This document shows, in pieces, positions 1-3,888 of a stretch of 64,000 nt of DNA. The translations under genes were made by a program, and so were the position numbers. Position 1 is the stretch's first letter; each line of letters begins with the position of its first letter. Source of the stretch: an uncultured Fidelibacterota bacterium. Lineage in GTDB: Bacteria > Fidelibacterota > Marinisomatia > Marinisomatales > Marinisomataceae. The notes beneath the pieces were generated by a model. It was not told the DNA's origin. It did not search any database and worked only from the letters and a program-made list of their open reading frames with translations. Location of the stretch: assembly GCA_902538565.1 (NCBI GenBank), contig CACBFQ010000002.1:1-64000 (forward strand), read 5' to 3'.

Positions 1-1626
1 GTAAATATATGTACCTTTGACTGCTCTTAACAGCATTGTTTTGTATATATTTATAATATAAGATTTTAATTCGTGTTTATTTTTAATTCCTCTTTTACCA
101 TTTTTATCAAAGTACATATCTTCGTTTATTATAATTTCATTCATTTCTTTATTATAAGAAATTTCATGACCAAAAATCAAAGCGCAATAATTTAAATCAT
201 AACCTTGAGATGTATGAATGCAACCAATTTCATTAATTGCGTTATCTGAATTAATCCAATCTCTAGTTATAGAGTTCCATTTAAATGATTTATTTTCAAT
301 TGTAATATCTCTATATGATCTGTCATCTTTGTATTTCCATTCCCATGAAAAACCTGCCAACATTCTACTAAGTCCATATTTCTTATCTTTTGTTTTGATT
401 TGTCTTTGTAAGTCATCGATTTTGTCAAATAGAATAAGATCATAGTATTTGTTTTTATATACGCTGCTAGCCCTTGATTCAAATAAATCTTCGATAAATG
501 ATTCATAACTTTCACCTCCCAAAGATCTATGTTGAGATGATAATTGTAATGTATGTGAGTTAATTTTTTCCTCTTGAAATTTAAAATCATCAATATCAGT
601 AGGTCTTACTGATTGATTTTTATCATAAAAAAGAATTTGGTTCGTAGATTTCTTAATTATCCAGTCTAATTCAGTGCCAGACTCTTTATCAAAGCCTAAT
701 CTTTCATTTACACTATCAAATGTTCCATAATTGGTTAAGTTCTTTCTTTTCTTCAATCTATGCGATTCATCTACAATTAATAAATCAAAATTGTCATTAG
801 CTACTTCTGAAGGACCTATAACCATATTAGCCTTCAAACCTTTAACTGATCTAAAAACTTTTTTCAATGTAAACCTTAATGAAGTCATGGGTACAACCAA
901 TCCAATTTTAATACCATTAGGAAACTTTGATTGAATAGTTTTTACTAATTCGAGTTCTTCTGAATAGTCCTTATCTGATTGATCTAAATGATAATCGTGA
1001 ATCTTTGTTGAAAGCAATTTCATCAAGTAAGTTGCTAATACAGTCTTACCTGTTCCAGCTCCCCCTTCTATAAATATTTTATTATTAGTATTTTTGCTTA
1101 GATGATTTAAAATACTGATTACTGAACTTTTTTGATCCGATGACAAACTTTTAAATGGAGAATATTTAAAATAATCATCATTATCGATTCTGCTAATATC
1201 ATTTTTTGCAAAATCGAGCGATTTTAATTTTTCCCAAATATCATTAAAAAAAGAAATATACATATCTTTTTGATAGAAATTATTATTTGAACATAAACCG
1301 TCGTTTCTATTTTCAACGTTTACCTTTTCATCAGCAGCCATATATTCAATTAATTTAGATTCAATAAAAGTCGTTGCAGATTTATTAAATCTATCTGAGC
1401 TTATCACTAATAATTCGTCCGCATGATTTCTATTTGAATTTCTTAAATGATCATTAAATCGATTTATACCATTTGTTGTTTCACCGATATATGTATCGTT
1501 TGTATCGCTGTTCTTTAAAATATAGACTATTGGCCATCTTTCTGACACTTTATCGTTAAGTTGATATCCACTACTTGATGAAAACGGATATCTATTTACT
1601 CTCAAAGAGGAAGAGAAATCATTCAT
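1..1626 (-). CDS. GIY-YIG nuclease / DUF2075 helicase-like protein, 3' end cut by window
   Basis: An open frame of 542 codons runs from ATG at 1626 to the window edge with no stop; the C-terminus lies outside. A GIY-YIG-like domain is visible at residues 34-95 (VYI at 34-36, YIGE at 46-49, R56, H60, putative metal ligand E89). It is followed by a P-loop ATPase of the DUF2075/Schlafen-3-like type: Walker A GGAGTGKT (188-195), Walker B LIVDESH (283-289), FYDKNQSVRP (333-342), the SQHR arginine motif (364-367) and HTSQGYDLNY (471-480). This fusion is known as an uncharacterised nuclease-helicase family, often found in variable genome regions. The start overlaps the stop of the MazG-like gene (ATGA), so the two are probably translated together. 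Role in DNA or RNA processing, possibly defence, is inference. Confidence 0.88.
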   Translation of the reverse strand, partial: MNDFSSSLRVNRYPFSSSSGYQLNDKVSERWPIVYILKNSDTNDTYIGETTNGINRFNDHLRNSNRNHADELLVISSDRFNKSATTFIESKLIEYMAADEKVNVENRNDGLCSNNNFYQKDMYISFFNDIWEKLKSLDFAKNDISRIDNDDYFKYSPFKSLSSDQKSSVISILNHLSKNTNNKIFIEGGAGTGKTVLATYLMKLLSTKIHDYHLDQSDKDYSEELELVKTIQSKFPNGIKIGLVVPMTSLRFTLKKVFRSVKGLKANMVIGPSEVANDNFDLLIVDESHRLKKRKNLTNYGTFDSVNERLGFDKESGTELDWIIKKSTNQILFYDKNQSVRPTDIDDFKFQEEKINSHTLQLSSQHRSLGGESYESFIEDLFESRASSVYKNKYYDLILFDKIDDLQRQIKTKDKKYGLSRMLAGFSWEWKYKDDRSYRDITIENKSFKWNSITRDWINSDNAINEIGCIHTSQGYDLNYCALIFGHEISYNKEMNEIIINEDMYFDKNGKRGIKNKHELKSYIINIYKTMLLRAVKGTYIY

Positions 1627-1961
1627 TTCAAATCACTGTATTTTGTCGATTTACCTTTTGATTTTTCTACAGGATATTTTTTTGAGTTATCTTTAATCTT
1701 ATTTTTAATTATTTCAAAAGGATCAAGATTATGTTTATCTGCAATCAAAAATGCATACGAAAGAACATCAGCAAGCTCTTCTGAAAGTTTTTCTTTGCTT
1801 ACGTCTTCTGACTCCAAGGTATTTTTCCAAAGAAATAATTCATTTAGTTCAGCTACTTCAATAGAAAGAGCTAAAGCCAGATTTTTTGAATCATGAAACT
1901 GCTTCCAATCTCTTTCATCTCTAAATTTTTTTAATCTTTTAATTATTTCTTCATAATTCAT
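1623..1961 (-). CDS. MazG-like nucleotide pyrophosphohydrolase
   Basis: A 112-residue all-alpha protein with the MazG/dCTPase metal-binding pattern: ExxE at 35-38 (E35, E38, with E41 following) and ExxD at 62-65 in EELADV. Members hydrolyse (d)NTPs to the monophosphate and pyrophosphate; this short single-domain form resembles the RS21-C6/dCTP pyrophosphatase branch. The ending HNLDPFEIIKNKI is typical of the fourth helix. It is immediately upstream of the GIY-YIG/DUF2075 gene with an ATGA overlap, pointing to a two-gene unit. Substrate cannot be told from sequence; house-cleaning of damaged nucleotides or nucleotide depletion during stress or infection are both possible. Confidence 0.85.
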   Translation of the reverse strand: MNYEEIIKRLKKFRDERDWKQFHDSKNLALALSIEVAELNELFLWKNTLESEDVSKEKLSEELADVLSYAFLIADKHNLDPFEIIKNKIKDNSKKYPVEKSKGKSTKYSDLK

Positions 1962-2004: not shown

Positions 2005-3003
2005 TTATGAAACTAACTGCTTAATTTGCTTAGCAGCATCAATAATTGCAGACTCTGAAGATCGGAACTTCCACCCTAATATGTTTTTTGCATTTCTAGA
2101 ATGATAAATACGAAGAATATCTATGTCGTTTACGAAGTGTTTAACCTGCTTATCAAAAATTGAGAATACTCGTGCTAGAAATGACGGTAGTTTTATCTTT
2201 GGTGCTTTAAAGCCATTATTATTAAGCACTTTAGCTATTTCAGGGAAAAACATATGATTATTAGATGCAATAAAGCGTTTACCAGGTGCTTTGTCATTAA
2301 TCATCGCTTCAAAATGCATATCTGCAACATCTTTAATATGAACAATATTGATACAAATATTTAACGTAACTGGTAGTGAACCATCAATTAAACGCTTAAT
2401 AACTAAATTTGAAGCACCAATATCATCTGATAACGAACTACCAAAGACCATGGAAGGATTAATGGCTACGGCTTCCATATCCGTCTTCCCTTTATGTTCT
2501 TTCATAAAGTTCCATAAATATTGCTCAGCCTTGGTTTTACTGGTCTGATAAGGAGCAACATCCATACTTAAATCTGTCCAATCAGTGTCATCATACTCAA
2601 ATTTATGATTTGAGCCCCCCACTGCTGCTACAGAGGATGTCATTACAAAACGTTTAACGTTATTCTTTAGCGCAGCGTTAAGGCATCGTTTGATGCCATT
2701 TACAGCAGGTTTTACAACAATATCATAATCATCTGAATTGGTAGTTGGTATAGGTGAGGCAATATGTTGCACATAATCACATCCAGCAACTGCTTCATCC
2801 CACCCTTCATCTTTTAATAAATCAAGTTCGCAGAATTCAAGCATACCTGCCGTGGAAACTTCTTTTTCCACTGCATCAATCACTTCTTGCTTTCGATCTA
2901 ACGAACGAAGAGATGTACGTACCTTATAGCCCTCTTGAATGAGCTTTGAAATTAGATGTAGTGAGATAAATCCAGAACCACCGCTAACAAAAACTTTTTT
3001 CAC
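2005..3003 (-). CDS. NAD(P)-dependent epimerase/dehydratase, dihydroflavonol-reductase-like
   Basis: A 332-residue extended short-chain dehydrogenase. The N-terminal nucleotide motif is SGGSGFIS (residues 7-14), close to the GASGFI(G/A) of dihydroflavonol-4-reductase relatives. RSLDRK near residue 35 would contact NADP. The catalytic set is TSS (around 122) and YQTSK (YxxxK, about 152-156), and NPSMVFG is the usual substrate-loop start. Such proteins reduce carbonyl groups on varied small molecules; substrate is unknown. The following membrane-protein gene (3009-3290) lies 5 bases upstream on the same strand, so they are likely co-transcribed. Confidence 0.85.
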   Translation of the reverse strand: MKKVFVSGGSGFISLHLISKLIQEGYKVRTSLRSLDRKQEVIDAVEKEVSTAGMLEFCELDLLKDEGWDEAVAGCDYVQHIASPIPTTNSDDYDIVVKPAVNGIKRCLNAALKNNVKRFVMTSSVAAVGGSNHKFEYDDTDWTDLSMDVAPYQTSKTKAEQYLWNFMKEHKGKTDMEAVAINPSMVFGSSLSDDIGASNLVIKRLIDGSLPVTLNICINIVHIKDVADMHFEAMINDKAPGKRFIASNNHMFFPEIAKVLNNNGFKAPKIKLPSFLARVFSIFDKQVKHFVNDIDILRIYHSRNAKNILGWKFRSSESAIIDAAKQIKQLVS

Positions 3004-3381: not shown

Positions 3382-3888
3382 ATGGAGTTAAAAAATATGT
3401 ATAATAATGTTGAAAAATTCGTGTTAGCAGGTGTAATTTTGTGTATCGGTTCCTTGTTTTTTCTAATGGATCAATCCGAAGAAGTAGAACTGTCCGATAA
3501 TATCTCAGAAAGCTTTAGCAATGAAGGCACTGTGGATGTAGAGATTACCTCATTAGTTAATAACACCAATATGGGTAATTCAGTCAATGACGAAGCCATG
3601 ACTACAGAAGCAGTGCCAACATTTAGCAATGATGTTGAATCAATTGAAGTAATTGAAACTACCCCTGTACCCTCTTTCAATGACGCATTTTTAGAAGCTA
3701 GAAATGAACTAGGTCCTGGAAATACGTTTCAATGGAATGGAAATCTTTTTTCTACCAATTACGCTGATGAAGTATTTGAAGTCTTACAAAGCGAAGTTGC
3801 AGTAGAAGATATTTTAATTGATGAGACTGAACCACAACTCAGTCAAGTTGATGAAGACGAAAGTCTTGCTTACAGTAACTCAAAATAG
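3382..3888 (+). CDS. Membrane-anchored acidic protein of unknown function
   Basis: A 168-residue protein with one N-terminal membrane helix (about 12-29) and a long, acidic, Ser/Thr/Asn-rich low-complexity stretch (30-100). A short folded-looking C-terminal module has the pattern AFxxARxELGPGxxFxWNGxxFxTxYADE (about 105-137). I recall this module in uncharacterised proteins of Bacteroidota but cannot name a family. It is one of only four clear plus-strand genes. A strong hairpin follows the stop and is shared with the convergent glutaredoxin gene. The linker suggests the C-terminal module is displayed at a distance from the inner membrane. Confidence 0.7.
   Translation: MELKNMYNNVEKFVLAGVILCIGSLFFLMDQSEEVELSDNISESFSNEGTVDVEITSLVNNTNMGNSVNDEAMTTEAVPTFSNDVESIEVIETTPVPSFNDAFLEARNELGPGNTFQWNGNLFSTNYADEVFEVLQSEVAVEDILIDETEPQLSQVDEDESLAYSNSK

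Follow-up and report, generated by a model that had tools for sequence, protein, structure and literature searches.

The described enzymes closest to the locus studied here each resemble it in part. Type IV restriction enzymes of the SauUSI type, composed of a PLD nuclease, a superfamily 2 (SF2) helicase and a DUF3427 domain, likewise fuse a nuclease to a helicase motor, and their relatives are operonic with a nucleotide pyrophosphohydrolase, sometimes fused to an S24 domain, and found in five loci beside the MazG-like and GIY-YIG/Schlafen-helicase (MazG/GIY-SLFN) pair described below; they differ from the pair in the nuclease (PLD versus GIY-YIG or PD-(D/E)XK-like), in the helicase superfamily and in the hydrolase (Nudix versus MazG). 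The dCTP pyrophosphatase DCTPP1/RS21-C6 has in common with the small protein of the pair the family, the ExxE..ExxD metal site, two pocket tryptophans and the C-terminal YPV..KY.DL, whereas His38 of the human enzyme is not conserved and the small protein belongs to a near-obligate operon with a nuclease-helicase. Schlafens of group 3 (SLFN11) and bacterial Schlafens share the PF09848 helicase with the large protein, of which SLFN11 is the top fold match, but the large protein possesses a GIY-YIG nuclease in place of the Schlafen RNase core. Finally, the Ala-Gly site, the G-x-S-M serine and the T-x-K lysine of the S24 autoproteases LexA, UmuD and CI are found in 59 of 79 relatives of the large protein, with the difference that S24 is fused there to a nuclease-helicase and not to a DNA-binding domain, and that the gene under study ends before that region.

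PADLOC 2.0 contains no model for the pair and none for the MazG-like gene, and its models for the large gene are partial and weak: the candidates PDC-S14 and PDC-S41 match the GIY-YIG and helicase parts (E ~1e-10 and 1e-6) as single domains, with no model for a MazG-like partner. A search that covered subscription papers and preprints thinly found no literature in which GIY-YIG or MazG is linked to DUF2075 or Schlafen, an absence that is no proof of novelty, and the pair is not described in the passages found in papers on MazG, GIY-YIG and antiphage defence or in BREX and phosphorothioate surveys. As a system it thus appears to be undescribed, while its component families are all separately known.

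The stretch of DNA analysed (hereafter the window, G000:C2:1-64000) comprises 64,000 nucleotides, with position 1 located at the contig edge; genome G000 amounts to 0.97 Mb in 5 contigs and is 96% complete. The features of the locus are listed in Table 1. An earlier note on this DNA had described two open reading frames overlapping as ATGA, the larger of them running past the window edge, had assigned MazG-like, GIY-YIG and DUF2075 domains to them and had singled out E89 and K194 as residues to mutate. All of this was confirmed: both frames are present on the minus strand with a 4-base overlap, the Pfam families PF12643, PF01541 and PF09848 (SLFN-g3_helicase, the present name of DUF2075) all match, both residues are correctly named, and the large frame is still open at the contig end, at residue 542.

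Table 1 Features of the MazG-like and GIY-YIG/Schlafen-helicase gene pair and its flank. Positions are those of the window.
Feature	Coordinates	Strand	Basis
MazG-like gene, first of the pair, 112 aa, dCTP pyrophosphatase 1 / RS21-C6 family	1623..1961	-	PF12643 E=3.7e-17
Large gene, GIY-YIG nuclease and Schlafen-group-3 SF1 helicase, readable over 542 aa, 3' end cut off by contig edge	1..1626	-	Pfam, ORF
GIY-YIG core, residues 33-76 of the large protein	1399..1530	-	PF01541 E=3.2e-6, above Pfam cut-off
GIY-YIG catalytic Glu E89 of the large protein (catalytic set runs on to E89 and N106)	1360-1362	-	
Schlafen-group-3 helicase domain, residues 184-542 of the large protein	1..1077	-	PF09848 E=4.7e-55
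Walker A Lys K194 of the large protein (Walker B is D286-E287)	1045-1047	-	
ATGA overlap of both genes, 4 bases, translational coupling	1623..1626	-	coordinates
NAD-dependent epimerase/SDR-type gene, left boundary of the hotspot, not part of the system	2005..3003	-	assigned by reading the sequence

The small protein (62.8 bits against a PF12643 cut-off of 27) belongs to a family of all-alpha NTP pyrophosphohydrolases, and its nearest solved structures are the pyrophosphatase 4qgp (E=5.5e-21) and dCTP pyrophosphatase 1 (6sqw and 2a3q, E=3.4e-19), the alignment with the latter reaching through the C-terminal YPV..KY.DL. Its metal site, consisting of E35, E38, E62 and D65, is invariant in 80/80 homologues, as are W19, F22, H23 and W45. 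Compared with the pocket of human DCTPP1 (His38, Trp47, Trp73, Tyr102), both tryptophans are invariant in the homologues, the Tyr102 position is occupied by Tyr, Phe or Trp and the His38 position mostly by Leu or Ile. For the large protein, the SLFN-g3_helicase match reaches 187.7 bits against a cut-off of 24, and an AlphaFold model built from the family alignment (pLDDT 88.6, pTM 0.84) finds its best PDB fold match in human SLFN11 (7zel), followed by Dna2, Upf1 and RecD2; no Pfam domain for the Schlafen RNase core is detected in the protein, GIY-YIG being located at that end. Among the 79 aligned homologues, the GIY-YIG residues Y35, Y46, G48, R56, H60 and E89 are invariant and N106 is kept in 78, and the helicase residues K194, D286, E287, H289, Q365, R367 and R534 are invariant as well. 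Because the GIY-YIG, helicase-motif and metal-site residues are conserved to this extent, activity is predicted for the nuclease, the helicase and the hydrolase alike.

When some 85,000 species genomes were scanned with an alignment of plasmid and phage homologues as query, at least 591 matching stretches encoding relatives were returned, the best 80 of which were fetched; a genome-contig scan with the single protein as query had given no matches. The earlier note had proposed neighbourhood statistics for the pair. A MazG-like gene adjoins the large gene in 78 of the best 80 homologous loci, being upstream on the same strand in 75, divergent in two and downstream in one; of the two exceptions, one is truncated at the end of its contig. 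The commonest spacing is again a 4-base overlap. Since the same neighbour recurs in 78/80 loci from other genomes, the pairing is not due to chance. More distant GIY-YIG helicases occur without a MazG-like neighbour (L007, L008, L011, L013, L014). Among the hosts of the pair are Bacteroidota, Pseudomonadota, Bacillota, Bdellovibrionota and several candidate phyla. Within these ranges the distribution is patchy. Among 150 relatives searched, clear matches with the paired gene were obtained only in G000 itself and in G065 from the same order, three others being weak partial helicase matches, and none of the 23 further genomes in the genus of G000 has the two genes as a pair. In Marinobacter, 12/124 genomes carry the GIY form and nine more a variant, and all ten loci read have the MazG-like neighbour. 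E. coli genomes searched with an Achromobacter pair as DNA query gave no match.

The variant units, represented by L003 (182-2349, from G065) and by L135 (3447-6188) and L136 (4730-7471) from Marinobacter, retain the MazG-like gene and the helicase while the N-terminus is replaced; S24 is also kept in Marinobacter. The N-terminus of the L003 protein contains a D...ExK pattern typical of PD-(D/E)XK nucleases, as noticed by reading the sequence and not by a profile match. A swap of the nuclease with motor and hydrolase retained is what would be expected of an effector attacking DNA.

An origin of the pair in phages was considered and rejected, there being one IMG/VR match at 28% and four records in the phage collection searched, only two of which cover most of the query. 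The pair is also found, at 36% identity, at 6469-8713 of L012 (MT836409.1), a record deposited as a human-faeces bacteriophage, although this scaffold is short and unverified and could be of bacterial origin.

In G000 the pair starts 43 bp after the epimerase gene, which has orthologues (76-94% identity) in eight congeneric genomes, with variable cargo starting right beyond them. The variable slot (L125-L131) extends from the epimerase to a conserved membrane-protein gene and leuS. It is essentially empty in G014 (L128), and elsewhere it contains genes for N6/N4 methyltransferases (G009), C5-methyltransferases (G022 and G008), D12 adenine methyltransferases (G011), a type I restriction-modification (R-M) system with a helicase-REase (G012) and an apparently decayed type I R-M system (G019). 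The pair therefore occupies a restriction hotspot, the slot of which is empty in one relative and holds R-M or DNA-methyltransferase genes in six, and this is direct evidence. PADLOC models applied to the flanks matched 161 families with 94 near genes against 8 families with 61 far genes, which counts families and not genes and includes many redundant models. As for the rest of the neighbourhood statistics, clear defence neighbours are present in a minority of the relatives, 14/81 loci with a limited query set. The suspicion of defence expressed in the earlier note is nevertheless upheld by the patchy presence of the pair and by the hotspot, and the pair was found to be neither rare nor confined to housekeeping contexts.

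Two further observations concern the surroundings. Seven loci (L016, L026, L039, L040, L049, L070, L078) have RhuM-family genes at distances of up to ~5 kb from the pair. The small gene at 3382-3888 of the window has a diverged second copy (~32-50% identity) just past the epimerase in most relatives from the same genus, and this second copy is absent from the window, where the pair sits.

With regard to the lost 3' end, the earlier note had supposed that more components may lie beyond the edge. This holds for most relatives, 59 of the 79 usable ones carrying a C-terminal S24 domain of the LexA/UmuD/CI type which brings the large protein to ~670-740 aa, but not for the two nearest: the sister group of the window protein in the tree (support 97), made up of L015 with 54% and L016 with 50% identity, has a short form of 563 aa without S24. 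This group is nested among S24-bearing lineages, and at least seven changes of state (gain or loss of S24) are required over the tree. The contig edge cuts the window gene off ahead of the S24 region of the long-form relatives, and because its sister group is short it is expected to be a short form as well, lacking ~20 residues compared with L015. Neither the lost 3' end nor an S24 piece nor an overlapping contig end was found elsewhere in the five-contig G000 assembly. Where the domain is present, the catalytic serine and lysine are each conserved in 59/59 proteins, and about 54/59 retain the Ala-Gly scissile site; these features are documented for RecA-mediated self-cleavage (PMC8565304).

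A parallel operon was encountered when Flavobacterium difficile was searched with the long protein, which revealed a second S24 copy (47% identity) at the end of a 1142-aa protein consisting of PLD, ResIII helicase, DUF3427 and S24 (L134, 2057-5885, together with a Nudix gene). This protein matches the PADLOC model for type IV methyl-directed restriction (mREase_IV) with E=2e-236 and PDB 7clg, which we take to be SauUSI, with E=5.6e-227. The Nudix gene, matching PADLOC candidate PDC-S07, overlaps the SauUSI-like gene on its upstream side, and among solved structures its product comes closest to a putative CTP pyrophosphohydrolase and to MutT, the CTP pyrophosphohydrolase 2rrk also being matched. 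In 200 Flavobacterium genomes, 25 of the 29 SauUSI-like homologues (L145-L173) have a Nudix frame in the fetched stretch, the overlap being mostly 4-8 bases, and L151 additionally has a frame-broken Nudix beside the SauUSI-like gene; five close SauUSI-like copies in Flavobacterium carry S24. Both units, complete, adjoin each other in L009 (2246-7641, a Lactiplantibacillus plantarum plasmid), L031, L083 and L174, and in L075 a SauUSI-like gene is located beside the MazG unit. From these findings it follows that each of two nuclease-helicases without mutual homology has an operonic hydrolase, the two hydrolases being non-homologous as well, and that S24 modules and loci are shared.

We consider it likely that the pair serves defence. 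Given defence, it is somewhat probable that the partner sanitises the nucleotide pool rather than depleting it. The complete reading which we prefer, namely that the pair is a mobile and self-contained restriction-like DNA-defence unit in which the small enzyme prevents modified dCTP from entering the cell's own DNA, is put forward tentatively, our confidence in it stopping just short of the halfway mark. The large protein would act as an ATP-driven SF1 helicase or translocase with a GIY-YIG nuclease (elsewhere a PD-(D/E)XK-like one) attacking foreign DNA, and its target would most likely be DNA with modified cytosine or phage replication intermediates. A modification-dependent nuclease would free modified dNMPs which, once rephosphorylated and polymerised, would turn the host genome itself into a target; modified dCTP, such as 5-methyl- or 5-hydroxymethyl-dCTP, could come from degraded modified DNA or be made by phage enzymes. 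By hydrolysing the modified triphosphate, the small dCTP-class pyrophosphohydrolase would break this loop, and no self-cutting would ensue. In most relatives, though perhaps not in G000, RecA filaments formed upon damage of host DNA may trigger self-cleavage at S24 and so switch the nuclease-helicase off or on.

Hydrolysis of 5-methyl-dCTP is known for DCTPP1/RS21-C6 and for E. coli Orf135 (PMC10742078, PMC4491611), and the Km of human DCTPP1 for 5-methyl-dCTP is lower than that for dCTP (PMC4491611). Sanitising is favoured because two hydrolase families converge on the same arrangement and one of the two branches has a type IV identity. It is weakened by the loss of the human-pocket His38 and by the fact that the carriers show no avoidance of C5-methyltransferases: in Marinobacter these enzymes are found in 5/12 genomes with the pair versus 41/103 without it (Fisher p=1). 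The latter result does not support a general 5mC trigger, and 5hmC or a specific 5mC context fits better. G000 possesses no C5-cytosine methyltransferase, and no PADLOC type IV model matches the large window protein. With Leu or Ile in place of His38 and Tyr, Phe or Trp at the Tyr102 position, the substrate preference of the small protein is taken from its family.

The main rival, which was already present in the earlier note as a logic of nucleotide depletion plus cutting, is abortive infection, in which the MazG-like enzyme would destroy dCTP and the nuclease-helicase would cut DNA so that phage replication stops. Antiphage dCTP deaminases and dGTPases are known, all catalytic residues of the MazG-like protein are kept, the pair lies in a defence hotspot, and the family of the small protein hydrolyses dCTP (PMC4491611). 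On the other hand, a constitutive dCTPase cotranslated with a nuclease would need control, of which none is visible, and the Nudix of the SauUSI-like operon falls in the MutT/CTP-pyrophosphohydrolase group, usually viewed as pool cleaners. To our knowledge, the nucleotide-depleting enzymes of defence are deaminases or dGTPases, none being of the MazG-like family. Depletion is thus possible but not the best supported reading, and we regard it as unlikely; because the partner family hydrolyses 5-methyl-dCTP as well as dCTP and a non-homologous Nudix is operonic with a type IV restriction family in similar loci, protection of self DNA from modified dCTP fits at least as well.

Two other readings seem to us distinctly improbable, and to a similar degree. 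The pair might be a module for SOS repair or fork processing, the helicase-nuclease trimming DNA ends, the dCTPase tuning the pool and S24 linking both to RecA, which is consistent with the intact cleavage site and Ser-Lys pair of S24 in most relatives and with Dna2, RecD2 and RecD as fold neighbours. Against this stand the patchy presence inside genera, the R-M hotspot in the window's genus, the several gains or losses of S24, and the finding that, upstream of the MazG-like gene, none of four SOS-box motifs (CTAA-N5-TTAG, GGA-N5-TCC and the types of E. coli and Bacillus) is enriched. Alternatively, the MazG-like protein might be no pool enzyme but a nucleotide-sensing regulator or antidote holding the nuclease-helicase inactive in the manner of a toxin-antitoxin pair, as near-invariant pairing and translational overlap would suggest; yet the metal-binding residues and pocket tryptophans, invariant in 80/80 homologues, would be unneeded for pure binding, and the distant GIY-YIG helicases listed above manage without a MazG-like neighbour.

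Returning to the restriction-like unit with a sanitising hydrolase, what would be new is that a nuclease-helicase of restriction-like character has its own enzyme acting on the nucleotide pool, and that most members add a switch of the LexA type. If true, it would explain how modified nucleotides are excluded from the genome of a cell which breaks down foreign DNA carrying modifications, a question that seems rarely to be asked, and the SOS system would be joined to a restriction-like enzyme in one polypeptide. A still wider generalisation, which we regard as doubtful, would see here a general restriction design, so far undescribed, with three parts. The nuclease-helicase would join a GIY-YIG or PD-(D/E)XK-like domain to an SF1 motor of the Schlafen type, or PLD to an SF2 motor of the SauUSI type; a MazG/DCTPP1-like or Nudix enzyme from the same operon would hydrolyse modified dCTP, so that the targeted mark does not return to self DNA; and self-cleaving S24, triggered by RecA, would serve as a safety switch. 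The window would probably contain the short version of one branch. The two unrelated hydrolase families and two unrelated nuclease-helicases provide independent, cheaply testable cases in culturable hosts, namely Marinobacter, Flavobacterium and the hosts of the Lactiplantibacillus plasmids. In five Marinobacter genomes (L139-L143) the pair is located directly after glyS and in L138 and L144 at a different site, and the position behind glyS is possibly another insertion hotspot.
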